Below are positions 1,891 to 43,448 of a stretch of 44,533 nt of DNA, piece by piece. The translations under genes and the position numbers were made by a program. Each line of letters starts with the position of its first letter. Position 1 is the stretch's first letter. Under the pieces are notes generated by a model. The model worked only from the letters and a program-made list of their open reading frames with translations, was not told the DNA's origin and made no database searches. The DNA is from Lachnospiraceae bacterium (GTDB taxonomy: Bacteria > Bacillota > Clostridia > Lachnospirales > Lachnospiraceae), in NCBI GenBank assembly GCA_017526985.1, contig JAFXQR010000201.1, forward strand, positions 1 to 44,533, given 5' to 3'.

Positions 1891-1912
1891 TATATGAAAA
1901 CTAATATTTCAC
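1891..1912 (-). promoter_or_regulatory. CATATA box, copy 1
   Basis: Minus-strand TTTTCATATA preceded by GTGAAATATTAG. It sits between the terminator at 1914-1941 and the start codon at 1834, 57 bases from it. Confidence 0.7.
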
Positions 1913-1913
1913 T

Positions 1914-1941
1914 AAAAAAGCAGGAGTTTTTACGCTCCTGC
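1914..1941 (-). terminator. Intrinsic terminator of the 3797-1987 operon
   Basis: Minus-strand GCAGGAG / CTCCTGC stem with an 8-base loop, followed by a run of six T. It lies 46 bases after the stop codon of the 1987-2544 gene and directly abuts CATATA box 1. Confidence 0.85.
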
Positions 1942-1986
1942 TCTCGTCTTATTCCAGATCCCGGTCATCCCATGCTGCGATCTGCA

Positions 1987-2544
1987 TTATCGCTCCTCCA
2001 TTTCCACTTCTTTTTCGCTATCTATGATCTCTTTGAGCCCTTCTCTGCCTTCGTTGATGATCTTTTCGATCTTTTGAAGATCCTCTTCCGGGATCGGCTG
2101 TGTCAGCCACCCGCATCCAAACTTGTACATCGTACCGTCTTCTAATTCTACCTCATACATACCGACTGATTTAAGGTACTCGCAGCATTTCTCATAATCC
2201 GATGCAAACTTGGTAAGACCGGCTTCTTTTAAAGCTGCTTCCTGTTCCGGCGTACCGGCGTGCATATCGTTTGAATGGTATGCTTTCCAGAGCCTTCCGA
2301 TCTCTTCCATTTCCTCCAGGACCCCTTTTTCCTTTAGCTGATTCCTTAATTCGTCTAACAGCGTATCAATGCACTGCCCGCCCATAATGATATCCGAATG
2401 CTTTCCGTTCCAAACCTTTGCAGAGGCCGAAAATACCTGCGTTCCGTTGTCTTTTGTTTTTAACTCCATATTGATATCCACGGCATTGATCGCACATCCT
2501 CTGTCTTCAGCGTCGATCTTGCCAAACTTAAGTGTTGTTTTCAT
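1987..2544 (-). CDS. Conserved-looking accessory protein of unknown function
   Basis: 185 residues. It is soluble and acidic at the C-terminus. Recognisable stretches are KVWNGKHSDIIMGGQCID (about residues 43-60) and the centre with SNDMHAGTPEQEAALKEAG. Proteins with the latter kind of segment occur in accessory elements of Firmicutes, but I know no function. The start at 2544 has AGAGGAG upstream. It is the last gene of the operon 3797-1987 that starts at the box at 3839-3860 and ends at the terminator at 1914-1941. Confidence 0.75.
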   Translation of the reverse strand: MKTTLKFGKIDAEDRGCAINAVDINMELKTKDNGTQVFSASAKVWNGKHSDIIMGGQCIDTLLDELRNQLKEKGVLEEMEEIGRLWKAYHSNDMHAGTPEQEAALKEAGLTKFASDYEKCCEYLKSVGMYEVELEDGTMYKFGCGWLTQPIPEEDLQKIEKIINEGREGLKEIIDSEKEVEMEER

Positions 2545-2582
2545 CTTTCCGAACTTCTCCTCTTCTTTTTTTTTCGCCTTTC

Positions 2583-3218
2583 TTATCTTTCCGGTTCTTC
2601 ACAGGCATACATCAGATCCTCTGCTACGGACACATGATAGGTATCCTCGATCCAGTGCCAGATCTCTTCACGGTGTGTTCCGGCCGGGAACTGCTTCCAG
2701 TCGGACTCGATACATTCGGTTTCCGGATCTATAGGCACATCGGCTAATTCGTCCCAGACCTGTCTGGCCTTGTTAAGATTATCCTCTCTGACCCTTTCTG
2801 TCTCCAATTTTTTGGTTCTGTCAAACCAGTTATCTACGAATACCTTTATATCGGATGCCCCATAATTATTGGTCCTATTGAGATCAGCGCAAAAAGGGCG
2901 TTTTTCGATAATCTCATCACACAGAGCGTATTTTTCGGAGATGACTGTAAAACTGTGATCCCCAAAAGAAAGCGTATCCCCGATCTGATAGATTGATGAT
3001 TCAAGGTTGGTAATTTTCAAAGCGGGGCGCACACCAAAGCTGAAAAACACAAAGAGGCCATCGTCGTTGACAAGGCCGCTAACGCCGTTCACGCACGCCG
3101 CAACGTAATCACTGTAGCCCGCCGAGCGGAGCCACCAATTGTCTGATGCTTTTAACATATCTCCATTCAACTGCTTTGCTTCTCCTACAGAGAGCAGTGT
3201 GGCTCCTGTAATTTTCAT
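2583..3218 (-). CDS. DUF6273-domain protein
   Basis: 211 residues. Residues about 26-72 contain DNWWLRSAG...VRPALKI, the hallmark of DUF6273, a domain common in Clostridia with a C-type-lectin-like appearance. The domain is followed by an unrelated region and a C-terminal WHWIEDTYHVSVAEDLMY segment, which also recurs in accessory genes of Firmicutes. Only three bases separate it from the upstream gene (stop at 3222), so expression is coupled. There is no signal peptide, so it is probably cytoplasmic. The function of DUF6273 is unknown. Confidence 0.8.
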   Translation of the reverse strand: MKITGATLLSVGEAKQLNGDMLKASDNWWLRSAGYSDYVAACVNGVSGLVNDDGLFVFFSFGVRPALKITNLESSIYQIGDTLSFGDHSFTVISEKYALCDEIIEKRPFCADLNRTNNYGASDIKVFVDNWFDRTKKLETERVREDNLNKARQVWDELADVPIDPETECIESDWKQFPAGTHREEIWHWIEDTYHVSVAEDLMYACEEPER

Positions 3219-3221
3219 AGT

Positions 3222-3797
3222 TTACACCTCCTTATCTTCTTCTTTGTCATAAATGAAGTCATCCGCAAGATTCTTGATAGGATCCAGGAAACAGTATCGG
3301 TTTTCTTTGATCTCTTTTGCCAGAGCCATTACAGCATCGTTGTCGAGTTCTCCATCATCCGTATGGGTAATATACTCCGGATATTCCGGATTAAGCAGCG
3401 ACATCTTGGCCAGCATGATACACAACTCGTCGAGTGCCGGGGTCTCCGGCAGAGGATCCCCATCCAGATCATAGAACCTACCCGGGATCAACTGCTGTTC
3501 CTTTCCAAAGAGCGCCCGCTCCGTAATGATTTCCGTTGTATCGTCTTCGTGATTGTAGTAGCAGACCTTAACGGACTCCATATTCTGGTATTCCGTATCC
3601 TCCGGCACCCCAAAAGAGATCCCTTCCCTACAGCCTTCCATAAGACCTTCCGCTTCTTCTTCTGCCGCTTTTACTGCAAATTCGAAGGCCTCCCGCTTAC
3701 TGTCAAACTCCTTCAAAAGTACACCCTTCTCCAGATAACTGTTGGAAGCCTGCATTCCGTTTGCATCCCTGCACAAAGTTACAATCGTATATTTCAT
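3222..3797 (-). CDS. Unknown acidic protein, first gene of a three-gene operon
   Basis: 191 residues. The start at 3797 follows AAGGAGG. It is acidic, especially at the end (YDKEEDKEV), with a helical segment KREAFEFAVKAAEEEAEGL at about residues 34-52. There are no membrane segments or known motifs. The gene is preceded at 42 bases by a CATATA box (3839-3860) and is followed within three bases by the DUF6273 gene. The family is not recognised. Confidence 0.75.
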   Translation of the reverse strand: MKYTIVTLCRDANGMQASNSYLEKGVLLKEFDSKREAFEFAVKAAEEEAEGLMEGCREGISFGVPEDTEYQNMESVKVCYYNHEDDTTEIITERALFGKEQQLIPGRFYDLDGDPLPETPALDELCIMLAKMSLLNPEYPEYITHTDDGELDNDAVMALAKEIKENRYCFLDPIKNLADDFIYDKEEDKEV

Positions 3798-4227: not shown

Positions 4228-5331
4228 ATGAATAAAGGTTTGAAATTTCGGATATATCCCAACAAAGAACAGAGCGTAATGATCCAAAAGACTTTCGGTT
4301 GCAGCAGATTCGTATACAACCAAGGTCTTTCTTTGCGTGTGAGCGAATACAAATCCGGCAATTCTGTTGGGTACAAAGAAACCAATGCTATGCTCTCCAG
4401 CCTGAAAAAATCTGAAGAATACTCGTGGCTTAAAGAAGTCGATTCCATTGCCCTGCAGCAATCACTCCGGGATTTGGATAAAGCGTACAAGAACTTCTTT
4501 GCAAAGAGAGCAGGATTTCCGAAGTTCAAATCAAAACACAATCATAACAAGAGCTACCGTACACAGAATGTCGGCGGCAATATAGCCGTAGCAGGAAATT
4601 ATATCAAACTTCCAAAACTGGGCTATGTAAAGGCCAGGATCTCTATGCCGGTTAACGGAAAGATCAATAATGCCACGATCGAACAGGCTCCAAGCGGTAA
4701 GTATTTCTGCGTTCTTAACGTAGATGTGTCGGATGTATTCTATCTCAATGGCGGTTGTATGATCGGTCTGGATGTAGGTATCAAGACTTTCTATACCGAC
4801 AGCAACAACTTCTCTCTGCAGAATCCGAAAAACCTTGCCCGGTACGAGAAGAAGCTCATCAAAGAACAGCGAAGGCTTTCTAAAAGAGTAAAAGGCTCGG
4901 TCAACTGGAATAGACAGCGTATCAAAGTTGCCAGGATCCATGAAAAGATCACTGATCAGCGCAATGACTTTTTGCATAAAGAATCAACAAAACTGGTGAA
5001 AGAAAACCAAATCATCTGCATTGAGGATCTTAATGTAAAAGGAATGGTTCGCAATCATAAACTTGCCAAAACGATCAGCGATGTATCCTGGTCAAAGTTT
5101 TTCGATATGCTGGAATATAAGGCATATTTCTATGGTACCGAGATCATCAAAGTTCCAAGATTCTATCCAAGCAGTCAGACGTGTAACTGTTGCGGATATC
5201 AGAATCCTAATATCAAAAAACTCAGTATCAGAGAATGGGCTTGTCCAGCTTGCGGTACATATCATGATCGTGATGGTAATGCAGCTAAAAATATCTTGCA
5301 AAAAGGTCTGTCACTTCGTAAGGCAGTATAA
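4228..5331 (+). CDS. tnpB: TnpB RNA-guided nuclease (copy 1)
   Basis: 367 residues, a normal length for compact TnpB. The N-terminal OrfB helix-turn-helix begins KFRIYPNKEQ..., followed by the RuvC-like nuclease. The catalytic residues appear intact: Asp in GLDVGIKTFY (about residue 183), Glu in CIEDLNVKG (about 265), and Asp in HDRDGNAAKNI (about 350). The zinc ribbon CNCC...CPAC lies between the last two. TnpB proteins of IS605 elements cut DNA guided by an RNA made from the right end of the element. No TnpA is nearby, so transposition would need one in trans. It shares most motifs with copy 2 at 36705-37889 but is clearly diverged. Confidence 0.95.
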   Translation: MNKGLKFRIYPNKEQSVMIQKTFGCSRFVYNQGLSLRVSEYKSGNSVGYKETNAMLSSLKKSEEYSWLKEVDSIALQQSLRDLDKAYKNFFAKRAGFPKFKSKHNHNKSYRTQNVGGNIAVAGNYIKLPKLGYVKARISMPVNGKINNATIEQAPSGKYFCVLNVDVSDVFYLNGGCMIGLDVGIKTFYTDSNNFSLQNPKNLARYEKKLIKEQRRLSKRVKGSVNWNRQRIKVARIHEKITDQRNDFLHKESTKLVKENQIICIEDLNVKGMVRNHKLAKTISDVSWSKFFDMLEYKAYFYGTEIIKVPRFYPSSQTCNCCGYQNPNIKKLSIREWACPACGTYHDRDGNAAKNILQKGLSLRKAV

Positions 5332-8663: not shown

Positions 8664-9128
8664 TTAAAGCGATTTGTCTGATTTGTCCACTACAAGATCA
8701 AGATACCCCTTTTCCATGCCATATCCGGATAAGCGTTTAAATACGGATTCTGCCATTTCAAAACTGACTTCATCCTCTACGTCTAAGCTGCCAAGATTTT
8801 GCATATCGATCTCTGAAAGTTTTTTACCGGGACGGCACAGGTCTTTACATGCACAAACAATGCGTGTTCTTTTATCTTCACCGGTATATTCCGCAAGCAT
8901 TACTTCCTGAACCGGCAAACCGATTGACTTTGCTATCTTGCAGCCAATGTATTCTGAAAATGAATTATTGACATACGAAAAAATGTCTTTGCGATTTTGT
9001 TCTTTTGGATGATCTGGAAATTTCACAAGATATTTATAACCATCATCTAAAAAAACCTGGCGTTTTGTTTCAGATCCTCCATAGTTAAATAATCTGTTTT
9101 CTCTTACTATATGTTCGTTTAAATTCAT
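8664..9128 (-). pseudogene. Truncated HipA/CtkA-like kinase (N-terminal part only)
   Basis: 154 residues. The N-terminus aligns with the intact kinase at 9775-10827: NYGGSETKRQVFLDDGYKYL and F..YI...IA.SIGLPVQEVMLAEY versus NYGGSDRKFGI and ISSHIAEAIGISAHETLLGIY. It stops before the catalytic DRHxxNxG and metal-binding segments, so it cannot be an active kinase of this type. It could still bind a partner, but with its degenerate upstream gene it looks like the decaying copy of a toxin-antitoxin-like locus. Its start overlaps the 3' end of the antitoxin frame by four bases. Confidence 0.75.
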
Positions 9129-9656: not shown

Positions 9657-9800
9657 CTAGTGACAGTAATCTATATCTCCATCAATCTGGAAGTCTGCAG
9701 ACATCCATAGTGATACCCCCATTTTCAGAGACATAGCAGGACGCATATATATATCCCAATCGTCTGCTTTAGCATCAATCTTTATCAAGGATACTGTCAT
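9657..9800 (-). CDS. Possible small protein overlapping the kinase 3' end
   Basis: 47 codons, MTVSLIKIDAKADDWDIY...QIDGDIDYCH, ending at 9657. It overlaps the last 26 bases of the kinase gene in another frame and ends 10 bases before the frameshifted antitoxin start. The composition looks protein-like, but no Shine-Dalgarno is visible, so translation would depend on coupling. An internal start at about 9746 is possible. Confidence 0.35.
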   Translation of the reverse strand: MTVSLIKIDAKADDWDIYMRPAMSLKMGVSLWMSADFQIDGDIDYCH

Positions 9801-10827
9801 CGCGATTCGACTGAATCATATCGTGAATATGATTCAGATCTAAAGCGATTTCACCGGAACGCATCTTTTCTTTTAATAATTCTTCCGAAAACTGTATTCC
9901 TTTCGCAATACGAAGGTATGCCTCATCGCTATACTTTTCATGAATGCATTTCTCATATGCGTTATCCAGGATCAGTTCCTTTCTGGCTGACAGTATGATC
10001 TTATAGAACTCTTTCTTTACATCCGTTATGATCGGTGTGTTGTCGATCATATCGTATATATCAGCAAGATTGATCTTTGGAAAAACACGGATCAGAGCTT
10101 TACAGCATTCTTTATCATAACCGGAAGACAAAAGATCATAATACCCAACTTTCCCCGTCTTCTCGTATGACAAATGCAGCGCAGGAGAAGGAAATACCAG
10201 GCATCGTTTAGCGATCTCATAAGGATCGTCCATGATCTCTTTCATGCCGTCATCCGCGATCTGTGGAAACAGCGTGCTTCCCAGATCATATACCGGAGCG
10301 CAGCGGATATTATCATCATCCGCAAGATAACCCCAGTTGCCGGTATGTCTGTCAAAATTTCCAACCAAAGCATCCAATACAAAAGTATTCCAATAATGCT
10401 CAATGGATGCCTGTTTTAGATCCACCGGAATCAGCGGACTGTTCTGGATAGTATAATAGATCTGATCCAGTTTCGGGATTTTTTTAACATCCTTTGCGTC
10501 ATATACGGAACGCATGATATCGTGAAATTCAATATTTCTATCTGTAGGAGAGCGAAAATCTTTGCAGGCAACCGCAATTTCACCCTCATATATGCCTAGT
10601 AATGTTTCATGAGCAGAAATGCCGATCGCTTCCGCGATATGAGAACTGATATACTCTGATGTGGGCTTGTTCAGATAACTGGTAGTAAAGTCGTCTCTTT
10701 TTTCATGACGCTCCGCAAATTTTAACATATATACTTCGTTATTATAAATGATTCCGAATTTTCTGTCAGATCCGCCGTAATTTCGATAGGAGATCCGGCT
10801 TCCGGTAAAATCATGCAGCTTATTCAT
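9775..10827 (-). CDS. HipA/CtkA-like serine/threonine kinase (intact)
   Basis: 350 residues. The start at 10827 (MNKLHDFTGSRIS) follows GGAGGCATTT, while the longer frame to 10845 lacks support. The N-terminal lobe is NYGGSDRKFGIIYNNEVYMLKFAE. The catalytic core GNFDRHTGNWGYLADDDN and the metal-binding YDLGSTLFPQ are present, so activity is plausible. HipA-type kinases phosphorylate translation-linked targets and act as toxins; CtkA is a single-chain relative. The start overlaps the end of the 82-residue gene upstream by 8 bases. The unit begins at the HAD gene and the box at 11695-11717. I cannot tell whether it is toxin, regulator or defence kinase. Confidence 0.85.
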   Translation of the reverse strand: MNKLHDFTGSRISYRNYGGSDRKFGIIYNNEVYMLKFAERHEKRDDFTTSYLNKPTSEYISSHIAEAIGISAHETLLGIYEGEIAVACKDFRSPTDRNIEFHDIMRSVYDAKDVKKIPKLDQIYYTIQNSPLIPVDLKQASIEHYWNTFVLDALVGNFDRHTGNWGYLADDDNIRCAPVYDLGSTLFPQIADDGMKEIMDDPYEIAKRCLVFPSPALHLSYEKTGKVGYYDLLSSGYDKECCKALIRVFPKINLADIYDMIDNTPIITDVKKEFYKIILSARKELILDNAYEKCIHEKYSDEAYLRIAKGIQFSEELLKEKMRSGEIALDLNHIHDMIQSNRDDSILDKD

Positions 10828-11068
10828 AAATGCCTCCATAAACATAATATTCTTTCAGTATCTTCGAAAACTCTTTGTCAATATACCCATTATTCGTATA
10901 CCAGTTGATATCACTGTCTAATTCTGCCCGGTAGCAGTCTTCTGACAATCCACTGTCTGTCGTATTCAGGTATTCTATGAAACGATCGATCGTTTCCTGT
11001 AACTCTTCCGGGCAGTTTGGAAAATCAAGTGGCTTATATGGGCGTTTTTCTTCTTTTAATCGATACAT
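10820..11068 (-). CDS. Small partner of the HipA-like kinase
   Basis: 82 residues, acidic (MYRLKEEKRPYKPLDFPNCPEELQ...). It is translationally coupled to the kinase start. Upstream in another frame lies a 24-residue frame (11073-11147) ending MRINVDEGRI. Deleting one A from the run at about 11080-11085 would join them into MSERMLLMHKDDPVMRINVD...YDTMYRLKEEKRPYKPLDFP. So this may be either a separate small gene or the C-terminal part of a frameshifted one. GAAGGAAG lies 10-17 bases before this start, so it can be translated alone. It is probably the kinase's cognate accessory or antitoxin. Confidence 0.7.
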   Translation of the reverse strand: MYRLKEEKRPYKPLDFPNCPEELQETIDRFIEYLNTTDSGLSEDCYRAELDSDINWYTNNGYIDKEFSKILKEYYVYGGIYE

Positions 11069-17117: not shown

Positions 17118-17144
17118 CTTCTTTTACCTCGTTTTTATTTTGGA

Positions 17145-17861
17145 TCACCACAGCTTGGTATCTTCCTGCGGAGCTTCGTAATTATCCACATATTCCTGCG
17201 CATAGGCCTCACGGTAAACTTCTGCCTTCAGGTCTGCGGTATTGTATTGATCGGAAAGCTCCAAGGATACAAATTCTGTCTTAAACAGCATCCGCACCAC
17301 ATTGCCGGCGATCTTCTCTCCGTTGACAATTCTTTCTTCTGCCAGATCTGTTGGGTTCTCTCTGGTCAGATAACTCATCACCGGATTGACCAGATGCGCT
17401 GTCAGAACTTCATCGTTCCTATCCGTCTCACTGGAGACTGTTCCGAGATCCAGAAGGATGAAGTGGAAGATCCAGGTCTTGTCCGGATCGTTATGCTCCG
17501 CTTCTTCCGCTTTTTTCAGTCTGGCCCACAAGAGCTTTAACTCAGTATCTTCAAAAGAATTGAACCGGATATCCATACGGATAAAGCCGGGGTGAACCTT
17601 GCTATGATGCAGCGTATAGGTCACCTTGCTGGAGATGTTGTATACGATCTGCTTATTCCTGGAGTCTTCCGGTTCCTCCGCAGCGAAATACTGGTAAGAA
17701 CAGATTGCTTTAGGTTCTCCAAGCGGATCCTTCCCGTTAAAACGGTTCAGATATTCCTGGAAAGTATCTTTGCTGATCGCATTTTCCGTCATCGTTATTT
17801 CATCCGGATCCACAACTGCTCCCAGCTGTGCATCGTTGCTCAGGTTCTTGATCAGATCCAT
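17145..17861 (-). CDS. Unknown protein co-transcribed with the giant transfer protein
   Basis: 238 residues. Start at 17861 follows AAGGAGGAG. Soluble and acidic, predicted mixed alpha/beta, with MDLIKNLSNDAQLGAVVDPDE at the N-terminus and VHPGFIRMDIRFNSFEDTEL near the middle. There is no signal peptide or membrane helix. It is the first gene after the box at 17909-17930, and only 27 bases separate it from the giant gene. A cytoplasmic partner or chaperone of the giant protein is a reasonable inference, but the family is unknown to me. Confidence 0.7.
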   Translation of the reverse strand: MDLIKNLSNDAQLGAVVDPDEITMTENAISKDTFQEYLNRFNGKDPLGEPKAICSYQYFAAEEPEDSRNKQIVYNISSKVTYTLHHSKVHPGFIRMDIRFNSFEDTELKLLWARLKKAEEAEHNDPDKTWIFHFILLDLGTVSSETDRNDEVLTAHLVNPVMSYLTRENPTDLAEERIVNGEKIAGNVVRMLFKTEFVSLELSDQYNTADLKAEVYREAYAQEYVDNYEAPQEDTKLW

Positions 17862-17908
17862 ATTGGCTTCTCCTCCTTAAATGGCACAGTATTTGTATGC
17901 GCTATACA

Positions 17909-17930
17909 TATATGAAAAATAAGAAAAATA
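17909..17930 (-). promoter_or_regulatory. CATATA box, copy 6
   Basis: Minus-strand TTCTTATTTTTCATATA, 48 bases upstream of the start at 17861. It lies back to back with the sigma-A promoter of the regulator gene (17960-17988). Confidence 0.7.
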
Positions 17931-17959
17931 ATTTCTCATAGACAAATTTGATTTAATCA

Positions 17960-17999
17960 TTGACAAAAATGATAAAAATTGATATTATCAAAATATCAA
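17960..17999 (+). promoter_or_regulatory. Sigma-A promoter with palindromic operator for the HTH regulator
   Basis: TTGACA (17960-17965), a 17-base spacer and TATTAT (17983-17988). A perfect inverted repeat TTGATATT-N5-AATATCAA (17979-17999) covers the -10 box. This is a typical place for a repressor, so autoregulation by the downstream HTH protein is likely. Confidence 0.8.
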
Positions 18000-31617: not shown

Positions 31618-34600
31618 TTATTCTCTCTCGCCGAGATCGCTGTCTTTTTCGAGCATTGCTTCTCTGTTTATGTGGGCGATCCCGTTCTGATCCCGCTCCA
31701 TCCAGCTCCGGCTCTGCTCCATATTCGGCTTAAACGGTTCCACGCTCTGCAGACGATAGGATTCGCCAAATCCGTTCTTTGGCGGATTATAGGAGATCTT
31801 AAACATACCGGACTCCAGGTTCGGGCTGTCCGGACTAAAATACATCACAGTCAGGATCTTCTCATTCTGATCCATCAGCTGGAGCAGATGATAGTCTGTC
31901 ATATTTTTGGACATCTTTTTGGTATCCGATACGATGATTGCCGGGATGGAATACTCAACCGAAGTCAGTTCTTTTCCTTCCTTCAATATGGTTTCTTTGC
32001 GGTTCTCAAACATATCAAAGTTATAGGTCCATCCGGAACGCTTCAGTTCTTTGGATTCTTCCACAACTCCAAACGGGAAGCCAAGGCACTCGGTCTCGTA
32101 TTTGCGGTCTTCAATCTTCTCCTCGGTCGTACGCTCCCTGCCACGAACACCAACCTGCTCATCACGCTCTCTCTGGAGAGTTTCGTTCAGGCTTGCGATC
32201 TCTTCCCGGATCTCTGCGATCTCTTTACGCTTCTCCTGCAGATCCTCTTCCAGATCATTCGTCTCATCTCCGGATGCCTGTGCATACTGGATGTCGCCTT
32301 TGATCCGCTGAATATCGTCATAGGTTGCCGATCTTTTCCGGAAAGCTTCTCCAAGAGCTTTGATCTGTTCCAGGTGTCCGGGCTTTGAGTTCCCTTCCGC
32401 ATCCTTTTCCGTACCGTTTACCCATTCCATCATCAGCTTCTTATCACCGGCAACACGGTTGATCTCATCCTGCGGATTTTTGGTCGCCCAGCACTGATCG
32501 AACATTCCAAGCTTGATAAAGGCGTTGATCGCAGAAGCATTTGCCTCCGGATTGGTCCAGATGAATTCCATCAGGCTCATGCCTTCTTTGGTATTGTAGT
32601 CGATATAGGACTGCCCCTTGATGTTACCGTAGCCCATACGGATCGCATTTCCTTCGATCGTAAAGTCTGCCAGAGATTTACCAATCCTCGGAGGAAGGAT
32701 GGAGATGCCCATCTCGTGCATTTCCGCCATATATTTGGTCACCGGGTTCTCATTTCCTGCACCATCCTGCATCTCGTTGGAAAGTGTATGCTTATAGAAT
32801 GGCAGTGGATAGTACAGTTTCTGATATGCGGTAAACACCGACACCTGAGCATAAGCCGCAGCGTGGGATTTGTTGAACGCATACTTGGAAAACTCTACCA
32901 GTTTATCAAAGAGCAGCTCCGCTTCTGCTTCCGTAAGTCCGGCAGCCACACAGCCACGGATACCACGCTCCGGATCGCCGTGGATAAAGAACGGCTTTTC
33001 TTTCTTCAGAGGCTCTTCCTTCTTTTTAGACATAAAGCGGCGCACATTATCTGCGTCTGCCAGAGAGTATCCGGCCAGCTTCTGGAAGATGTGCATTACC
33101 TGCTCCTGATAGATCGACACACCGTAAGTCGGCGCCAGAATCTCCTGCAGGATCGGGTTATCGATATCCAGGCTCTTCTTCGGAGCTTTGTTGTTTACCG
33201 GGTCTTCCTGGTGACGCTTCTGCGCGATAATCTCCGGGATAAATGCCAGCGGCCCCGGACGGTAAGCAGCTACCAGAAGGATGATATCTTCAAAGCAGCT
33301 CGGCTTAAAGTCTTTCATCATCTTCGTCATACCCGGCGATTCTACCTGGAAGATACCAAGCGTGCGGCCTTTGGAATAGATCTCATCATAGATCCTGGGG
33401 TCTTTTAAGATCTTCTGTACTTCCTTCGGATCAGACAGCTTTGCATCTGCCGTCTCCTGCATCACTCTGGTGATCACGGAGAGGTTTTTGATGTTCAGAA
33501 GGTCCATCTTTAAAAGCCCAAGTTCTTCCGCCTGCGGATACAGACACTGGGTGGTCATCTTCTGGTTCTTCTCATTCCAGGCCAGCGGGATCACATCACG
33601 CAGCGGGTCACCGGAGATCAGGCAGGCACATGCGTGCATACCGAGTGTTGCGGGAACACCAGCCACTTCCACGGCACGCTTTGCCATCTCGGCCTGCGGC
33701 TCGTTGAACACACCATCCTTTAACATATCTTCCAGCGCTTTGGTACCACGCTCCGGATGGTTGGCAACCGAAATATCCTTTTCTTTTACATAAGCATCAA
33801 AGAGCTTTGAGATCTGGCTCTTGATCAGCAAAAGGTCTGCTTTTTTGGATGCTACACGGGCTTTCATATCCGCTTTTTCCGCTTTCTCAAAGGCGAGAAA
33901 ATCCTTCGGATCCATCTCATCCTTCTTCTCTTCCAGATATTTGGACAGTTTTTCCTTCTCCTGATCTTCGAATTCCGTCGTCATATACTGCTGCATCAGA
34001 AGTACCGCACCTTTTCCGTGCGTATAGGACTTGGTAGCTACTTTGGATACACACTCATCGCCGTAGCGGGTCTTGATATATTCGTAAACCTTCTCACGGA
34101 TGTCATCCTTAAAGTCGGAATCGATATCCGGCATGGTCTGTCTGGACGGATTTAAGAAACGCTCAAACAGAAGATCATACTGCAGAGGATCCAGTTCGGT
34201 AATACCAAGCAGATATCCGCACAGGGATCCGGTCGCAGAACCACGGCCAGGCCCGATACCCATACCGATTTTCGGAATATTATGGTCTTTGATATACTGC
34301 TCCATATCCTCGATGGAGAGTGGCGCATTATCAATCTCTTCCTTGGTGCGCATATAGCCGAGCAGTCGGCCGTACTTCAGATAATCCTGTACGATCAGAT
34401 GGTAGCCGGCAAATCCCATAGATTTGATGACTTCTTTCTCATAGTCGATACGCTCACGGTATCCTTCCGGAAGACCATCCGGAAAACGCCACGCAACACC
34501 TTTCTCCACTTCCTCTTCAAAGCGGGCATTTTCGTCGTCGCAGAACTTCGGATAATGGTTGATGCCGTCGATCGATATCTTCGGGAACTTTACTTCGCAC

Positions 34601-36441
34601 TGTTCCAGAACTTTGGGGATATTTCCGATCGCTTCATCGATGATCTCCTCCGCCGGATGGATCACTCCGTCCGGATCTATGTGTTCTTCGATGGACTGCA
34701 AAAGGATCTCTTTTAACTCAGCATCCGATTTGATACCGTATTCTTCCTGGTCTCCACGATCTTCTTCAATATTCTTGAAACGCTTAAAACGCTCTACGGA
34801 ACGCTTTAATACAGAGTTTTTCCAGGTATCCGTCCCTTTGTAGTCGCCGATATGCGTATCGTTGGAAGCCACAAACTTCGGATGATCGGTCACCTGATAA
34901 GCAAAATCGATCAGCCTGTTGTATGCCATCTTCTCAAACGGCAGTGTGTGGTTCTGGATCTCAAAGAAGAAGTTCTCTTCTCCAAAGATATCGATCAGCT
35001 GCTGATACTCTTCTTTTGCATCCGCCATACGCTCCGGCTCTGTTTCAATATAAGCCTCCAGATCGCTTTCTGCCTCGTGGATGCGGTTCATCTTCTTTTC
35101 TGCCTTGCCGATCTCTTTCTTTGCGAAGTCGTAAGCATCCTTATTCTCTGCCAGCCACTGCTGATTAGCGTTGTATATTCTTTCCTGTCCTTTGTATATG
35201 GTCCAGAGAGTCTCATCGCCCTCCTGCATTGCTTTTTCTGCTTTCTTCAGATCCGCAGCTTTTGGCTTCTTGAAATCCGGGCTGTTCTTACGCTCCTGGT
35301 ATTCCGCCACCAAAGCTTTCTGTTTCTCAAATGTCTCAAAGAACTTTTCTCCGCCGACCTTTTTCTTTTCCTTATCTACTTTCTCCCGCAGGGACCATTC
35401 GTTCATCGCCAGGTCGTAGCAGAATACACCGCCGGCGCAGGCCGTAGTGGCGATCACATTCCCTTTACGGATGTTTTCCCGCAGATTCTCCATAGTAACC
35501 AGCGGAGTCAGGTATTCGGAATCTTCGGTACGGTTTGCGGTAGAAATCTTGCTGTTTCTGGAAGATTCAGAGATCACACGGCACAGATCCACATAGCCTT
35601 CATAGTTTTTGGCGATCAGGACCATATGCTTGCTCTTCTGTTCATTACCTTCCTTGGTCAGGCCATTAAAATAGATCTCAACGCCGGGAATAATATCAAA
35701 CTGGTAATCCTCCGGCAGTTCTGCGCCCTTATCCTTCATCTTTTTCAGGATATCTTTCAGATCCTCATAGGCAAACATGGACCCATGGCCGGTTAAGGCA
35801 ACCTTCTTTGCACCACGCCTGATAAAATTCTTCACCCATTCCTTCAGATCATTTCCGGTGTCGAACATATCTTCTGCGTGAGTATGGACAGAACCATACA
35901 TCTCATTCTTTACTTCATCCACCAGCTGTTTTTTCGGCTCTTCCACGGCCGGGGCTGCGGCTTCTTTTTCTTTCTGCGCTTCTTCTTCCATTACCTGATC
36001 CCAGGTCTTTTCTCCGGAATACACCGCATAATACTTCTCATAATCATTGTCTTCTTTCTCAAAAGAAACTTTAGCGCCCATTCCTTTCAAAATGCCGCCG
36101 ACAATGCTGCGGTGACAGGTGTCTTCATTAACACAGAAGCATCCAAGAGCAACATTGTGCCCCTCTGCATCCATACCAACCAGATAGTCAAATGCTTTTT
36201 TTGCCGCCTCGGAAGAGCGAAGTTCCTCAATAAAACGGGGAACATAGACGGAATTAAAGGTGTCTTTATTCCACATCCCGTCTTTTTCCAGGGACTTTGC
36301 GGTATTCAAAAGGTCGTACGACGGAGAAAGCACATTCGCCTGTGCGATATGCTCGTTCTTGTTTTTCATATTCCGAACGATCGCAAAGATTTTGTCGTAA
36401 TCCTCGTAGTTGATATTCGAGATACTTTTAATACTGATCAT
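31618..36441 (-). CDS. dnaE: DNA polymerase III alpha subunit (DnaE) with N-terminal DUF488-like domain
   Basis: 1607 residues, several hundred more than the usual 1,000-1,200. Residues 1-130 resemble DUF488 (LSPSYDLLNTAK..., GCFCVNEDTCHRSIV). The PHP domain begins near 180 (YGSVHTHAEDM, LTGHGSMFAYEDL). An inserted coiled-coil stretch follows (about 345-480). The polymerase core has GIGPGRGSATGSLCGYLLGI (about 724-743) and catalytic MPDIDSDF (about 770-777). The C-terminus has an OB-fold-like part (SIPAIIVSDTKKMSK...) and a second coiled-coil insert (about 1360-1420). No 3'-5' exonuclease domain is seen. It is most likely the element's own replicative polymerase. Start at 36441 follows AGAAGG; its leader contains box 14. 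Confidence 0.93.
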   Translation of the reverse strand: MISIKSISNINYEDYDKIFAIVRNMKNKNEHIAQANVLSPSYDLLNTAKSLEKDGMWNKDTFNSVYVPRFIEELRSSEAAKKAFDYLVGMDAEGHNVALGCFCVNEDTCHRSIVGGILKGMGAKVSFEKEDNDYEKYYAVYSGEKTWDQVMEEEAQKEKEAAAPAVEEPKKQLVDEVKNEMYGSVHTHAEDMFDTGNDLKEWVKNFIRRGAKKVALTGHGSMFAYEDLKDILKKMKDKGAELPEDYQFDIIPGVEIYFNGLTKEGNEQKSKHMVLIAKNYEGYVDLCRVISESSRNSKISTANRTEDSEYLTPLVTMENLRENIRKGNVIATTACAGGVFCYDLAMNEWSLREKVDKEKKKVGGEKFFETFEKQKALVAEYQERKNSPDFKKPKAADLKKAEKAMQEGDETLWTIYKGQERIYNANQQWLAENKDAYDFAKKEIGKAEKKMNRIHEAESDLEAYIETEPERMADAKEEYQQLIDIFGEENFFFEIQNHTLPFEKMAYNRLIDFAYQVTDHPKFVASNDTHIGDYKGTDTWKNSVLKRSVERFKRFKNIEEDRGDQEEYGIKSDAELKEILLQSIEEHIDPDGVIHPAEEIIDEAIGNIPKVLEQCEVKFPKISIDGINHYPKFCDDENARFEEEVEKGVAWRFPDGLPEGYRERIDYEKEVIKSMGFAGYHLIVQDYLKYGRLLGYMRTKEEIDNAPLSIEDMEQYIKDHNIPKIGMGIGPGRGSATGSLCGYLLGITELDPLQYDLLFERFLNPSRQTMPDIDSDFKDDIREKVYEYIKTRYGDECVSKVATKSYTHGKGAVLLMQQYMTTEFEDQEKEKLSKYLEEKKDEMDPKDFLAFEKAEKADMKARVASKKADLLLIKSQISKLFDAYVKEKDISVANHPERGTKALEDMLKDGVFNEPQAEMAKRAVEVAGVPATLGMHACACLISGDPLRDVIPLAWNEKNQKMTTQCLYPQAEELGLLKMDLLNIKNLSVITRVMQETADAKLSDPKEVQKILKDPRIYDEIYSKGRTLGIFQVESPGMTKMMKDFKPSCFEDIILLVAAYRPGPLAFIPEIIAQKRHQEDPVNNKAPKKSLDIDNPILQEILAPTYGVSIYQEQVMHIFQKLAGYSLADADNVRRFMSKKKEEPLKKEKPFFIHGDPERGIRGCVAAGLTEAEAELLFDKLVEFSKYAFNKSHAAAYAQVSVFTAYQKLYYPLPFYKHTLSNEMQDGAGNENPVTKYMAEMHEMGISILPPRIGKSLADFTIEGNAIRMGYGNIKGQSYIDYNTKEGMSLMEFIWTNPEANASAINAFIKLGMFDQCWATKNPQDEINRVAGDKKLMMEWVNGTEKDAEGNSKPGHLEQIKALGEAFRKRSATYDDIQRIKGDIQYAQASGDETNDLEEDLQEKRKEIAEIREEIASLNETLQRERDEQVGVRGRERTTEEKIEDRKYETECLGFPFGVVEESKELKRSGWTYNFDMFENRKETILKEGKELTSVEYSIPAIIVSDTKKMSKNMTDYHLLQLMDQNEKILTVMYFSPDSPNLESGMFKISYNPPKNGFGESYRLQSVEPFKPNMEQSRSWMERDQNGIAHINREAMLEKDSDLGERE

Positions 36442-36540: not shown

Positions 36541-36760
36541 ACTATATGAAAAATAGAAAATTGAACTACCCATCAGCTAAAGCTAATGAGATTCCTGCTT
36601 CTCCGTGCGGTTGCACTCCGAAGTCTGTCCTACGGACAGGAGAGCGACTTACATACACTCCACAGGCGTAACTTTCCGTAGTTCCTACGGTAGTTTATAA
36701 GAAATTAAGCAACCTTATTCCTAATTATCAAAGCCTTGTTTAATATGTTTATAGCAGCGT
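36541..36760 (-). ncRNA. Putative omega RNA (reRNA) of tnpB 2 with guide
   Basis: The right-end region after tnpB holds several hairpins on the minus strand: CTACCGTAGGAACTACGG, CTGTCC GTA GGACAG, GTGC AACC GCAC, then the terminal CTCATTAGCTTTAGCTGATGGG. The scaffold would end at TAGTTCAA (36561-36569), and 36541-36560 would be the guide TTTTCTATTTTTCATATAGT. The 5' end is a guess. Confidence 0.55.
36543..36564 (-). promoter_or_regulatory. CATATA box, copy 14 (dnaE leader, overlaps the TnpB 2 guide)
   Basis: Minus-strand TTTTCTATTTTTCATATAG, 102 bases upstream of the dnaE start. The right end of TnpB element 2 joins it at 36561, so these bases would be the guide of that TnpB. Confidence 0.75.
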
Positions 36761-37889
36761 TTACATCCCTATCGTGATAAGTACCGCAAGATGGACAAGT
36801 CCATTCTCTAACAAGAAGACTTTTAGTTTCCTTGTTTTGGTAGCCACAACAGTTGCAAAGCTGGCTACTTGCATAGAACTTTGGCACTTTAACAATCTCT
36901 GTATCGTACAAAGGTGCTTTGTATTCGAGCATGGATACAAACTTTGACCACGATACATCGGAGATGGATTTTGCTAACTTATGATTACGAATCATTCCTC
37001 TAATATTTAAGTCCTCTACACCTATGATTTGGTTTTCTCTCACAAGTTTAGTTGACTCTTTTTGTAGAAAATCGTTTCTTTGGTTAACAATATGTTCTTG
37101 TATCTTTGCTACCTTGATACGCTGTTTTTGGATATTTCTACATTCTGATAGCGGTTTATCATATATAGGGTGCCTATATCCTTTGATGATTTTGTAATCT
37201 ACAATATGGTTTTCTATCATTTTAGAAAGTTTCCGTTGTTCTTTACGAAGTTTAGTCATAGATTTAGCAATCCATTTGTGGTTAGGACATTTGTAACCAT
37301 TGCTGTCGGTATAGAAATCCTTAATACCAAGGTCAATACCTATCATACAGCCATCATTAGTATATGTGGGTGTCTTTACTTCGATATTAAGAACGCAGTA
37401 GTATTTATCACTTGGTAGTTGCTCTATCGTAGCATTATTGATTTTAGCAGAGGTGAGGTCGTATGAGCATTTAGCCTTTACATAGCCCAATTTTGGCAAC
37501 TTAATATGCTTGCCATCCAAAGTAACACAAATACTATTATTTACATTTTGAGTACGATAATTGCGTAAAGGATCATGCTTTGACTTAAATTTAGGAAACC
37601 CTGCCTTTGTACGGAAAAAGTTCTTATATGCTTTATCCAAATCCCGTAAGGATTGTTGTAAAGATATGGAGTCTACTTCCTTTAAAAAAGAAAAATCATC
37701 CTCTTTCTTTAAAGCCGTAAGCATAGCGTTGGTTTCCTTGTAGCCGAGAAATTCCTTTGTAGACTCATAAGTATCTTTACGCAAAGCAAGACATTTATTG
37801 TAGATAAGCCTACAACAGCCAAAAGTTTTCGATATTAACTTTTTCTGCGTTTTATTAGGATATATCCTAATACGAACACCTTTAAGCAT
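36561..37889 (-). mobile_element. IS200/IS605-family TnpB-only element 2
   Basis: The right end matches element 1 (GAAGCA.GAATC.CATTA...GCTTTAGCT.ATGGG). No left-end hairpin is seen upstream of tnpB, where a 16-residue stub gene lies within three bases of the start codon. It is probably an immobile relic that still holds tnpB and its RNA region. Confidence 0.7.
36705..37889 (-). CDS. tnpB: TnpB RNA-guided nuclease (copy 2)
   Basis: 394 residues. N-terminal [15 protein letters not shown], RuvC motifs [10 protein letters not shown] (Asp, about 195), GVEDLNIRG (Glu, about 289) and [11 protein letters not shown] (Asp, about 374), with the CNCC...CPSC zinc ribbon between. All three catalytic residues look intact, so this is not an evident TldR-type inactive repressor. 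It is longer than copy 1 by an insertion near residues 225-250 ([14 protein letters not shown]...). The base composition is more AT-rich than neighbouring genes, suggesting separate origin. Transcription may come from the box at 38254-38275 through the preceding gene. Confidence 0.95.
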
Positions 37890-38276: not shown

Positions 38277-39755
38277 TTACTCTTCGCTGCCCTGGAAGGT
38301 CATGATCAGCTGGTAGATCTTATCCTGCAGTACCTGCTCAAACTCCTTCCCGGAAGAAACCGCTGTCCACGCCATTGTATCCACGATCATCTCCCCGCTG
38401 CCGTCATGTGCGGTAATCTTTGTAGAAGCCATATAAGCATCTGCATCCGTATGTACTATCGTATCATAATCTGTCAAGTCCGGCTCTGCAGCAAGGAAAG
38501 CATCCAGGATACGCTTTATGGTATTTGCTCTGAAAACCGCACGCTCGTACTTCTCCTTCATTAACTCTTCTTCGGTCTTCTTCTTTGCGAATACCTCATT
38601 TTCCGGGATCGTCAGGTCCAAAAGCCCCTCGATCTGTCTGCGGACCGTATTTTCAATCCCTTCTACCATCCAATCCGGCATCGTATCGTCGCCACGGAAG
38701 GTAAAGGAAAAGTCTCGCATAGTCTCCAGATCCCCGACAATCTCCTCGGTGATCGCCCATCGGCCAAGTCCGGTAAAATCCCTGCCAATCCTGGGCCTGC
38801 GGTAATAGATGTGCCGGCTTATATGCTCAAAATCTTCTTTTCTGAGATCACCGAATAAGGATTTATTCTGATCGAAAAACGGTGCAAAACCCTTGATCTC
38901 AAGGGTATCGTTATCCATAAGGAAGCCGAAATTGTTCAGATGCCGGTCACGATTAAAAGTCAGTGCGTCCAAAACCAGCATACGGCGGTACTGCGCTTCA
39001 CAGCCATACTTCTGTACCATCTCAAACACCTCTCCGATGGTCGGATAGCGTCCGTTTAACAGCGTATACGGTGTGACCAGGCCGGTACTTTCATCCGTAA
39101 ACCACTTACAATAGCAGAGGTCTTTGCCGAATTCCTGCGTAAAATCATAAGGCACATAATATGCGCCGTTATTCATCGCTTTGGAGATCTCTGCAGACAA
39201 AACTTCGCATCTGGCGCTCCTGCTTTCATCCGAGCCGGATTTGTAGAACAGGATCCCGTCATCTGTATTTCGAAACATCCGTGGGAAAGATCCGTTGTGC
39301 AGAAGCTCCGGACAGCAGCTTAGATCTGTCTCAGCCGTCTTGATCTGCTGCATTGCCTCTGCAACGCCTAAACACGCCTGCGATACCAGCGGATTATACT
39401 GCTTCCGATAGAGTGATACCTCCTCCCAGGAGATCTTTTCTGTTTCTTCCCGCACCCAGAAAGTATCATTTAAGGACGCAGCGTGGGTATGCCGGACGAA
39501 CTCCTTCGGATCGTACAGATGCTGCATCGAGATCACACGGTCGGCCAGACTGTTATGTTCTGCTGCGCTGCGGTTCGACAGCCACTGGGAAAGCCCAAGG
39601 TTGATATCTTCTTTTTCCTCGTGCAGCAGATACCCATATGGCAGGCTTTTTCTATCACATTTCTTTGCATTGCTTACCACATAGACGGATGCATAGGACG
39701 ACCCTACATCAAAAGAAGTGATCTCTTTGTTTTTGTTCATCAGTATATAACGCAT
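38277..39755 (-). CDS. HipA-like kinase (long form)
   Basis: 492 residues. ATG at 39755 (MRYILMNKNKE) follows GGAGG. The catalytic loop LDALTFNRDRHLNNFGF (about 288-304) and metal-binding FAPFFDQNKSLFGD (about 317-330) are intact. The N-terminal region before the core is unusual for HipA and is shared with the pseudokinase at 30635-31474. The C-terminal about 150 residues are helical and acidic. HipA-type kinases phosphorylate protein targets and cause growth arrest. No HTH antitoxin is adjacent, so control may come through the pseudokinase or the box at 39796-39818. It has a monocistronic unit. Confidence 0.85.
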   Translation of the reverse strand: MRYILMNKNKEITSFDVGSSYASVYVVSNAKKCDRKSLPYGYLLHEEKEDINLGLSQWLSNRSAAEHNSLADRVISMQHLYDPKEFVRHTHAASLNDTFWVREETEKISWEEVSLYRKQYNPLVSQACLGVAEAMQQIKTAETDLSCCPELLHNGSFPRMFRNTDDGILFYKSGSDESRSARCEVLSAEISKAMNNGAYYVPYDFTQEFGKDLCYCKWFTDESTGLVTPYTLLNGRYPTIGEVFEMVQKYGCEAQYRRMLVLDALTFNRDRHLNNFGFLMDNDTLEIKGFAPFFDQNKSLFGDLRKEDFEHISRHIYYRRPRIGRDFTGLGRWAITEEIVGDLETMRDFSFTFRGDDTMPDWMVEGIENTVRRQIEGLLDLTIPENEVFAKKKTEEELMKEKYERAVFRANTIKRILDAFLAAEPDLTDYDTIVHTDADAYMASTKITAHDGSGEMIVDTMAWTAVSSGKEFEQVLQDKIYQLIMTFQGSEE

Positions 39756-39795
39756 ACCATCCCTCCGTTTTACCATATACCCGGTATTCCACATT

Positions 39796-39818
39796 TATAT
39801 GAAAAATGAAATATTACA
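39796..39818 (-). promoter_or_regulatory. CATATA box, copy 16
   Basis: Minus-strand GTAATATTTCATTTTTCATATA, 41 bases upstream of the start at 39755. Confidence 0.7.
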
Positions 39819-39837: not shown

Positions 39838-40326
39838 TTACGGCAATTCCGGATCTTCGATCTTAGGCACGAATTCCCGACAGTTTCTGGTATCCCAAAT
39901 GACCAGTCGGTCTGTACGGTCAAGATTTAAAAGCCGGTCTTCAATATTTTTCCAATCTTCTCCGCCAAAACCGCAGCCGATCCCATAGGGTACATAAACC
40001 GGAGTCGTACCGAAATCCGGATTTCGCAGTATCCCACGAATTGCCAGAACCAGTTTATCCACATCTGTGTAGATCTTTCCGCTTTTGGCCGGGTTTCCGT
40101 AGGAAAACTGGGTAAACAGATTTGCCACCCACAGATCCGGTCCCACCTGCACCATCTGGATCCTGCCAAATAATTCCTCTTTGGCGTTCTTCTCAAATGC
40201 TTTATGATACATTTCTGCCACAATAGGGTACTCTTTCATAATCGCCTTTGCAAGCCCGGCTCCCATCACATTCTGGCAGTTGACCTGCTGACAGAAAATT
40301 CCTTTTTCAATCCCGAAAAGCATCAT
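39838..40326 (-). CDS. Macro-domain protein (ADP-ribose binding or hydrolysing)
   Basis: 162 residues. The N-terminal signature VNCQNVMGAGLAKAIMKEYP (about 15-34) and the phosphate-binding loop YGIGCGFGGEDW (about 113-125) define a macro domain of the stand-alone type. Such proteins bind ADP-ribose and often remove it from proteins or DNA (DarG-like) or process ADP-ribose-1''-phosphate. GGAGGTAAC precedes the start; ATG at 40326 or 40323. No DarT-like toxin is adjacent. It is a single-gene unit with the box at 40361-40383. Compare the NADAR gene at 30191-30631. Confidence 0.9.
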   Translation of the reverse strand: MMLFGIEKGIFCQQVNCQNVMGAGLAKAIMKEYPIVAEMYHKAFEKNAKEELFGRIQMVQVGPDLWVANLFTQFSYGNPAKSGKIYTDVDKLVLAIRGILRNPDFGTTPVYVPYGIGCGFGGEDWKNIEDRLLNLDRTDRLVIWDTRNCREFVPKIEDPELP

Positions 40327-42220: not shown

Positions 42221-42229
42221 AATTCCTCT

Positions 42230-42274
42230 TTAATGCACTTCTTTCTTGTATGCAACAGCATCCTGTCGCAGCAT
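42230..42274 (-). CDS. Possible 14-residue peptide between two genes
   Basis: MLRQDAVAYKKEVH. ATG at 42274 follows the stop of the DUF5710 gene by one base, with AGGAGAG correctly spaced. Its stop is nine bases before the Pnkp start. It may serve translational coupling rather than act as a protein. Confidence 0.35.
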   Translation of the reverse strand: MLRQDAVAYKKEVH

Positions 42275-42275
42275 A

Positions 42276-43385
42276 TTATTCTCTCTCCTCACTATAGTAT
42301 TCAGTAACAAACTGTTTTACTTCTTTCTTGGTAAACCGGTATTCGTCACGATACCGTCTCCATACCTGATCGATCAGAGCATCTTTTTCTTTCTGTGTCA
42401 CAAGGTTTTCGTATCCGGCTTTCTTTAAGCTGTCCATGATAAGGGATAAGCCGGTCTGCCGGCGCTCTTCGTGTTCTCTTGCCCGCTGTGCTTCTACTTC
42501 TTTCAGCTCTTCACAGCAGCGATTTCGGATATTTAAGCTGTCAAAATACCAGAGCTCCACATCCGCATCCCAGCGTGCGCCAAACTCCTTTACCAGGTCT
42601 TTATCACGAAAGTCGCTGTGGATGTAATAATGCCCACCGATCTCCATTGCCAGATCATCGTTGCTGTAGGTATCCAGGATATCTTTTTTGCGGTATTCCG
42701 TATACCAAGCCGTAATTCCATCTTTCATCCACAGGGTTGCTGCGGAGATTGTATGAAAACCGTCGTCCTTCGTATACCCGACTTTCTCGATCGATTTGTA
42801 GAACTCGTTCATAATATCCCCGTGAACATACAGTCCCCTCTGGCTTTTAGATATGGAGCTCTTTGCAAACAGAGCCTTTGTCCAGCCTTTCCTGGTTTTG
42901 TCTCCGGCTGCATATTCACAGATCAATATAGTATTCATCTCGTGCGGGTCTCCAAAAGCGACCAGAAGAGAAAATCCATCCACACCACGGACAAATTCGG
43001 AAGTCCGGTAGGATGCAGCTTTTTCTTTATCCTCCAGCTTAAAATAGCAGTCCATCTGCGGAAAATAGTAATCCGGCACAAAATCAGCCCCATTCACGGA
43101 GAACACCCTGGTGTTGTGCTCATAGGTTAGGCCGATACCGTCAAAAAACGATACCCACAAAGCCGGAAGGAATTTTCGGTTGTCCAGAATATACTTTTGC
43201 TTCATATCTTCGTACCTTGCAAGCAGGTCTTCCTTAATCTGCCGGTATGCAATATCTGCACCGAACAGCGTTTTGATGCAGGTATACCCTGCCACCAGAA
43301 CATCTTCTTCGTCATCCGCAAATAATGGCAGATTCTCTGTTGCTCCACTCTCATTTTGTATTTTTGTAAGCCATTCCGGTACCAT
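42276..43385 (-). CDS. DUF5710-domain protein
   Basis: 369 residues. Start at 43385 follows TAGGAGAAAAT. Residues about 255-282 (YYIHSDFRDKDLVKEFGARWDADVELWYF) match DUF5710, a small domain often present in conjugative-element proteins and thought to bind DNA or partner proteins. The first 240 residues are a mixed domain I do not recognise (LTYEHNTRVFSVNGADFVPDYYFP..., FVRGVDGFSLLVAFG). The C-terminal 70 residues are helical and charged. First gene of the unit with the Pnkp-HD protein; box at 43426-43448. Confidence 0.8.
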   Translation of the reverse strand: MVPEWLTKIQNESGATENLPLFADDEEDVLVAGYTCIKTLFGADIAYRQIKEDLLARYEDMKQKYILDNRKFLPALWVSFFDGIGLTYEHNTRVFSVNGADFVPDYYFPQMDCYFKLEDKEKAASYRTSEFVRGVDGFSLLVAFGDPHEMNTILICEYAAGDKTRKGWTKALFAKSSISKSQRGLYVHGDIMNEFYKSIEKVGYTKDDGFHTISAATLWMKDGITAWYTEYRKKDILDTYSNDDLAMEIGGHYYIHSDFRDKDLVKEFGARWDADVELWYFDSLNIRNRCCEELKEVEAQRAREHEERRQTGLSLIMDSLKKAGYENLVTQKEKDALIDQVWRRYRDEYRFTKKEVKQFVTEYYSEERE

Positions 43386-43425
43386 AATATTTTCTCCTAA
43401 AAAACAGAAAACTATTTGTTATGTT

Positions 43426-43448
43426 TATATGAAAAATATTATTTTACA
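43426..43448 (-). promoter_or_regulatory. CATATA box, copy 20 (last in the window)
   Basis: Minus-strand GTAAAATAATATTTTTCATATA, 41 bases upstream of the start at 43385. No further copy occurs in the remaining 1.1 kb. Confidence 0.7.

Follow-up and report, generated by a model that had tools for sequence, protein, structure and literature searches.

The 44,533-nucleotide contig C72 of a Lachnospiraceae genome (the window, that is, the whole stretch of DNA analysed) carries many copies of an 11-base box, TTTTTCATATA, ahead of its minus-strand genes. Our analysis suggests that this box is the core of a self-encoded promoter class of a large conjugative plasmid-like element, and that the class is read by the element's own divergent RpoD-like sigma factor, a reading to which we assign a probability of about 0.72 on the basis of sequence comparisons. 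That the box is a promoter, with CATATA as the -10 element, C at -12 and no -35 element, is strongly supported by the analyses below. A sequence-only reading of the window had inferred promoters specific to the element that would depend on a dedicated sigma factor or an activator, and this proposal gains support from the density of the box, its orientation into genes, the scarcity of host-type promoters and a sigma factor with a matching -12 substitution.

Distribution, anatomy and placement of the box

We counted the box throughout the assembly, a draft of 4,085,151 bases in 220 contigs with 92.5% completeness. The exact box occurred 169 times, against 17 for the reversed pattern, and the 13-mer TATTTTTCATATA occurred 88 times, against none. 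Four contigs, with a total of 392 kb, held 150 of the 169 exact copies (67 on C47, 170 kb; 44 on C105, 119 kb; 22 on C174, 59 kb; 17 on the window), leaving 19 in the remaining 3.69 Mb. The G+C content of these four contigs is 44-45% and that of the control contigs 48%; the controls, some of which were picked because they had a box match, contained 7 exact copies in 473 kb, near background. A matrix scan of element and host contigs at a threshold of 13 bits gave a similarly sharp contrast, with 188 raw matches on the element (184 non-redundant) against a length-scaled control value of 5.8 and 0 in one shuffled copy. The box is thus neither as dense in the host chromosome as on the element nor common inside genes, 180 of the 184 matrix sites lying outside called genes.

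The four contigs encode a CD1110-family VirB4, a T2SSE-type ATPase, a type IV secretion system (T4SS) coupling protein and a PrgI protein, as well as a MobV relaxase, an actin-like protein and a DNA polymerase III alpha-like protein. Since they carry conjugation and replication genes, we infer that C47, C105, C174 and C72 belong to one conjugative megaplasmid-like element of at least 392 kb, presumably a single replicon in this host. Shared insertion sequences were considered as proof of host linkage and discarded as uninformative: the transposon DNA of the window matches element contigs only, with a lone DDE transposase match on C105.

Alignment of the 150 exact copies revealed a single contiguous block, GTnAAATATTA-TTTTTCATATA-nnnn-T-R, and no conserved -35 block. 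The upstream extension that the sequence-only reading had described for the better copies does exist, but as part of one contiguous block of ~28 bp and not as two separated elements. When a mixture was fitted to 170 strong sites, 101 of them (~60%) had the GTnAAATATTA block, at about -28 to -18 if the C of CATATA is taken as -12, and 69 had a T-rich stretch in its place; the core was nearly identical in both classes, partly by construction because the sites had been picked by their core. The observation that no TTGACA lies 17 bases before CATATA is borne out in general over these 170 sites, in which the mean number of TTGACA matches was 1.56-1.82 for spacers of 15-19, compared with 1.45-1.78 in background windows, and only 4 hexamers over all five spacers reached 5/6 matches. 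Furthermore, a pyrimidine-purine step was found at positions 15/16 in 124 of the 170 sites, other steps from 11 to 25 reaching at most 35%, and position 16 was a purine in 92% of the 150 exact copies, a set unselected on those positions. We infer that transcription starts at this purine, 6 bp after CATATA.

The same picture emerged from the regions upstream of 246 element genes, in which single-base variants were counted without the matrix. The exact box was the commonest 11-mer, present in 121 of the 246 regions as compared with 2 of 191 on control contigs, and its single-base variants were almost absent, only C at the fourth position being frequent (11/246). At the -12 base of CATATA, T was found in one region and A or G in none, against C in 121. 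Two other assignments were rejected, namely TATAWT at positions 7-12 as the -10 element (T at position 12 reaches just 44%) and GTnAAA as a -35 element with a -10 element further downstream (positions 12-17 are weak). Chance repeats or terminator T-tracts as the source of the box were likewise rejected, on the results of the mixture fit and of the placement in gene gaps.

As for this placement, the next start in the box direction lay within 250 bases for 156 of the 184 matrix sites (median 53 over the 182 sites with one on the contig), while a start equally close in the opposite direction was present for 25. When the upstream neighbour lay on the same strand less than 40 bases away, genes had no box (0/162), compared with 27 of 65 when this gap was 40-100 bases, 96 of 146 when it was at least 100 bases, and 24 of 35 when the upstream neighbour was on the opposite strand. 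The box thus covers 120 of 181 opposite-strand or wide-gap genes, which we regard as high. Among gaps of at least 60 bases, 12 of 18 divergent ones held exactly one box per direction, none of 15 convergent ones held a box, and 133 of 210 tandem ones did, four with one facing backwards.

We also scored host-type promoters (TTGACA-16/18-TATAAT) ahead of genes whose upstream gap was 100 bases or longer. A score of at least 9 was reached by 31% of units on chromosome contigs (shuffled 3%, n=142), by 6% of boxed element units (shuffled 3%, n=115) and by 13% of box-less element units (shuffled 2%, n=53); at a score of at least 8, the values were 53% (shuffled 26%), 31% (31%) and 42% (26%), respectively. 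By the host SigA promoter criterion, TTGACA ~17 bp before TATAAT, boxed units are therefore at about the shuffled level. Box-less window units with a near-consensus host promoter include a transposon-type gene at 4339 and a helix-turn-helix (HTH) gene at 18044.

Within the window, all 20 copies listed by the sequence-only reading were found on the minus strand, to which the box coordinates refer, 17 of them being exact and three (1891, 11695 and 38254) having one mismatch. Matches with up to two mismatches on both strands numbered 81, compared with 27.7 +/- 5.1 in 100 shuffles. The single orientation of the copies is a property of the window and not a strand rule, as 29 of the 67 exact copies on C47 face the plus direction; the strand of the box follows gene direction, and the plus-strand genes of the window simply lack one. 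A distance of 26-101 bases to the start codon, also claimed earlier, was confirmed for 19 of the 20 copies and failed for 41156, whose nearest called start is 331 bases on and has its own box. For the boxes at 7609 and 11695, the called starts are 560 and 210 bases off, respectively, the caller having chosen too far downstream; start codons lie ~35 and ~63 bases after these boxes, upstream of the called starts. The matrix scan added a tandem copy at 30126 and doubtful matches at 192 and 872. The boxes, followed by two host-type promoters as contrast cases, are as follows.

1891..1901, minus: box GTTTTCATATA, one mismatch, GTGAAATATTA upstream; 29.3 bits
3839..3849, minus: box TTTTTCATATA; 26.3 bits
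7609..7619, minus: box TTTTTCATATA; 21.3 bits
8455..8465, minus: box TTTTTCATATA, GTGAAATATTA upstream, top score of the window; 39.4 bits
11695..11705, minus: box TTTTCCATATA, one mismatch, GTAAAATATTA upstream; 28.2 bits
17909..17919, minus: box TTTTTCATATA, T-rich upstream; 25.8 bits
19965..19975, minus: box TTTTTCATATA with GTGAAATATTA; 33.3 bits
20567..20577, minus: box TTTTTCATATA; 23.2 bits
23358..23368, minus: box TTTTTCATATA ahead of a VirB4-like gene; 23.3 bits
25380..25390, minus: box TTTTTCATATA; 20.3 bits
27112..27122, minus: box TTTTTCATATA; 19.7 bits
30094..30104, minus: box TTTTTCATATA; 32.7 bits
30126..30136, minus: extra tandem box TTTCTCATATA, absent from the earlier list; 31.0 bits
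31531..31541, minus: box TTTTTCATATA; 26.7 bits
36543..36553, minus: box TTTTTCATATA ahead of a DNA polymerase III alpha-like gene; 24.5 bits
38254..38264, minus: box CTTTTCATATA, one mismatch; below the 13-bit matrix cut
39796..39806, minus: box TTTTTCATATA; 32.6 bits
40361..40371, minus: box TTTTTCATATA; 19.8 bits
40851..40861, minus: box TTTTTCATATA; 28.5 bits
41156..41166, minus: box TTTTTCATATA, no evident nearby gene start of its own; 32.2 bits
43426..43436, minus: box TTTTTCATATA; 33.1 bits
17960..17988, plus: host-type promoter TTGACA-17-TATTAT ahead of the box-less HTH gene at 18044
1038..1066, minus: host-type promoter TTGACA-17-TATAAT ahead of the box-less gene 438-1001

Several cargo genes of the window were recorded in passing. 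The minus-strand gene at 31618-36441 encodes a DNA polymerase III alpha-like protein of 1607 aa with an N-terminal DUF488-N3 domain ahead of the PHP domain, a fusion that looks unusual, a label given without a survey. The transposon-type genes at 4228-5331 and 36705-37889 are related (TnpB-like by eye; DNA 66-72% identical over two stretches), and a host-type promoter match precedes the former. HipA-like kinase genes or fragments were recognised by eye at 8664-9128, 9775-10845 and 38277-39794, near which lies a macro-domain-like gene, also by eye, at 39838-40326. Outside the four contigs, C10 (L013) is mostly chromosome-like, with ABC transporter and GGDEF-type genes by eye, and its end region (14499-20000) resembles element cargo: it encodes a HipA-like protein with 36% identity to the window protein at 38277 and, by eye, phosphoesterase-like genes, and has a strong box at 19674 (33.9 bits) with no called gene behind it. 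This end may represent an inserted or residual piece of the element within the chromosome.

A sigma factor encoded by the element

We then searched the rest of the element for the anticipated sigma or activator gene, and indeed an RpoD-like sigma factor was found on C47, outside the window. Scanning the assembly for sigma region 2 gave nine matches, comprising host RpoD, this element sigma (C47:153869-155176, minus strand) and, by eye, one FliA-like protein, five extracytoplasmic-function (ECF)-like proteins, one of which is truncated, and a long protein with a partial match. The element sigma matches PF00140, PF04542, PF04539 and PF04545 above cut-off, corresponding to regions 1.2, 2, 3 and 4 of an RpoD-like (group 1/2) member of the sigma-70 family, with a weak trace of region 1.1 under cut-off (E 0.022). 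It misses the RpoD equivalog cut-offs (TIGR02393, 292.0 vs 354; PRK05658, 343.8 vs 555); host RpoD scores 402.8 with TIGR02393, above its cut-off, and falls just short of PRK09210 (569.3 vs 572) and PRK05658 (539.5 vs 555). No close relative of the element sigma was present among the matches listed for 397 genomes of the family sample, with at most four candidates scored per genome, the best other sigma matches among them being 42-51% identical. On C219 (L079), at 3515-3688 (minus strand), a 557-aa open frame matches sigma region 2 in part, continues into a long C-terminal portion unrelated to it and is possibly a sigma-like fusion.

In region 2.4, the element sigma reads WWIRQSIIRG and host RpoD WWIRQAITRA, with Ile replacing Thr at the position that we take to be residue 440 in E. 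coli numbering. Thr is kept at this position in 29 of 29 other RpoD-like loci, counted over best matches with the element itself excepted. According to PMC2613000, which cites Siegele 1989 and Waldburger 1990, and to PMC8321222, the T440I and Q437H substitutions of sigma-70 suppress a T-to-C change at -12. The box, with its C at -12, is probably read by the element sigma together with the host core RNA polymerase.

The sigma gene has a box of its own directly in front of it (C47:155215, 33.1 bits), and since it stands behind this box, the sigma would be made from its own promoter in a positive feedback. In addition, two element proteins join sigma region 4 to the alpha C-terminal domain (C47:157628-158317, minus strand; C47:67088-67774, plus strand; 29% identical). 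These sigma4-alphaCTD fusions may be cofactors that read GTnAAATATTA, but because similar proteins occur on other mobile DNA, including one next to relaxase-like frames on a small contig in a different genome (L056), their role here is a guess.

We thus propose the following model. The box would form the core of the promoter class of a large conjugative plasmid-like element, with CATATA as the -10 element, and TTTTT and, in ~60% of copies, GTnAAATATTA would occupy the normal spacer. Initiation would occur at the purine 6 bp downstream with no -35 element, host core RNA polymerase being guided to the box by the RpoD-like sigma with its T440I-type substitution, and the upstream block would be read by an accessory factor, for example one of the two fusions. 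A more far-reaching version is doubtful and is offered tentatively: an orthogonal transcription system on a mobile megaplasmid, in which a divergent RpoD-type sigma with natural specificity for C at -12 and a sigma4-alphaCTD fusion reading GTnAAATATTA in the spacer would provide composite, -35-less initiation for about two-thirds of the separable units of a ~390-kb replicon and leave host promoters alone.

Alternative explanations and points against the model

The upstream block, conserved in a subset of sites (101/170) and outside the normal sigma contacts, would also fit an activator. The host RpoD polymerase would then work with an element activator bound to GTnAAATATTA/TTTTT, CATATA would be a poor -10 element, the box would be mainly an activator site, and the element sigma would serve something else; the element encodes HTH proteins besides the two fusions, and its sigma keeps a canonical region 4.2. 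However, the core hardly differs between sites that have the upstream block and sites that do not (partly by construction), boxed units lack a -35 element, and T at -12, the preferred base of a Thr440 sigma, was seen in 1 of the 246 upstream regions, and we consider this explanation unlikely. The shared operator that the sequence-only reading had offered as its alternative fared worse. A repressor, nucleoid or partition protein could bind an operator or silencer site laid over ordinary promoters, in keeping with the very high copy number on one element, the existence of tandem copies and a weakly inverted TGAAA..TTTCA read from the sequence. Because boxed units have hardly any ordinary promoter to operate on, their host-type promoters being at about the shuffled level, this explanation is disfavoured, and the orientation of the boxes toward genes, their absence from convergent gaps (0/15) and the start-site-like pyrimidine-purine step further argue against it, so that we regard it as highly improbable.

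The contiguous 28-bp block with its fixed spacing is similar to promoters of single-subunit polymerases and might accordingly be read by an RNA polymerase of the element's own, single-subunit or divergent multisubunit. Against this, no PF00940 match was found, though all 14 control genomes were equally silent, and the sole above-cut-off PF00623 (beta-prime) match lies on C31, three weaker ones being off the element as well, within a search in which most element proteins were not run against family libraries; we give such a polymerase very little credence. CATA begins the -10 elements of the sporulation sigma factors E and K, a likeness pointed out earlier together with the remark that the rest of the box is unlike them. 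Against such promoters, the 150 exact copies have no conserved -35 block, the box is found for the most part on the element, and neither SigE nor SigK was recognised by eye among the nine region-2 matches, an absence that is no proof because the assembly is 92.5% complete. Sporulation promoters thus appear improbable in the extreme.

The model of a promoter class read by the element's own sigma also has evidence to contend with. The assignment of the element to this host rests on co-binning in a draft assembly of 220 contigs, and the genes were called with a simple home-made caller, so individual starts may be wrong. About a third of the wide-gap or opposite-strand genes (61/181) and 77 of the 210 tandem gaps of at least 60 bases have no box. 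The box of the sigma gene itself is slightly off consensus, ending in CATATT, and the sigma has retained a canonical region 4.2 (TRERIRQI) while its presumed promoters lack a -35 element. GTnAAATATTA has no proven reader, and we know of no base-specific contacts made by the standard holoenzyme where this block lies. We connected residue 440 with C at -12 when the motif had already been established, and since Ile or Leu at this position also occurs in Carsonella sigma factors, the residue is not by itself proof of a private promoter class; the match is specific all the same, involving one position, one base and the predicted direction.

A further point on this side is that no close relative of the element was found, with the probes used, in plasmids, phages, IMG/VR or species genomes, and hence no covariation of residue and box could be followed. 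In overlapping samples, TATTTTTCATATA reached at most 13 copies in any of 391 other genomes of the order, compared with 88 here, and ATTTTTCATATANNNNNR at most 12 in 396 other genomes of the family, compared with 98. A tblastn search of plasmids and phages with the sigma4-alphaCTD fusion gave no match; the polymerase, sigma and VirB4 gave only distant plasmid homologues, all below 60% identity (2000, 505 and 836 records, respectively); and IMG/VR scans with the fusion, polymerase and sigma found none, single-protein scans of this type detecting close relatives only. The consensus GTNAAATATTATTTTTCATATA had two single matches in IMG/VR, both in stretches of ~31% G+C that lack a second strong box, and four single matches in genome_contigs (Bacillus safensis twice, B. 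australimaris and a Heimdallarchaeota metagenome-assembled genome), from which the source genome is possibly excluded. Two candidate relatives were rejected: the sigma of Alkaliphilus pB6464 (H22) keeps Thr440, and a 41-kb stretch of that plasmid (28% G+C) has 25 scattered matrix matches of at least 9 bits with no evident promoter pattern, and a stretch of Ruminococcus albus pRUMAL01 has one matrix match. In the literature, searched by title and start of abstract with preprints and most subscription papers outside the search, we found no paper describing the element, and among the listed papers that contain the string TTTTTCATATA, none concerns plasmid promoters by title.

Comparison with known systems

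Plasmids are generally assumed to depend on host promoters for most of their genes. The present element probably runs a gene-expression programme of its own inside its host. If this is true, having about two-thirds of its separable units under a private promoter would buffer the element against regulatory differences between hosts and allow its genes to be switched as a block, and the element would supply an orthogonal expression system ready for use. It would also be a natural test, over ~180 promoters, of the genetic result of 1989-1990 that residue 440 helps set the -12 base, and it raises the question of what reads a conserved spacer block when the -35 element is absent.

T4 middle promoters, which depend on MotA/AsiA, combine a -10 element with a factor site within the usual -35/-10 interval. 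The box would have the same general layout, but the site and its spacing differ. Extended -10 promoters of the housekeeping sigma do not need a -35 hexamer either. They carry a TGn motif, as described in part of PMC2613000, in place of which the box has TTTTT and the GTnAAATATTA block. The T440I and Q437H mutants of E. coli sigma-70, as far as parts of PMC2613000 and PMC8321222 describe them, share with the element sigma the T440I substitution at the aligned position of region 2.4, with C at -12 predicted to be accepted in both cases; they are laboratory mutants of a housekeeping sigma, whereas here a second, element-borne sigma would be matched to a promoter set. In Carsonella, Leu or Ile occurs naturally at residue 440, according to part of PMC8321222, but in the cell's own sigma and not in a second, element-borne one.

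The nearest precedent for the element sigma is SigN (ZpdN) of the B. subtilis plasmid pBS32. As reported in part of PMC6751061, this plasmid-borne sigma directs host polymerase to largely plasmid-restricted promoters and activates its own gene; it is weakly ECF-like, DNA damage relieves the repression of its gene, and its action is lethal to the cell. The promoters in part of Table 2 of that paper have TTTACG/TTTACA-like and GATATAA/GATAAAA-like stretches (PMC6751061), and the box class does not conform to this type, no -35 block being present in the 150-170 sites. The two systems are alike in that a sigma gene resides on a plasmid-like element whose promoter class, the sigma's presumed target here, is largely restricted to that element. 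They differ in that the present sigma is RpoD-like and its candidate promoters are -35-less and number ~180, which seems large for a plasmid-borne factor, although this impression comes without a survey of other such factors.

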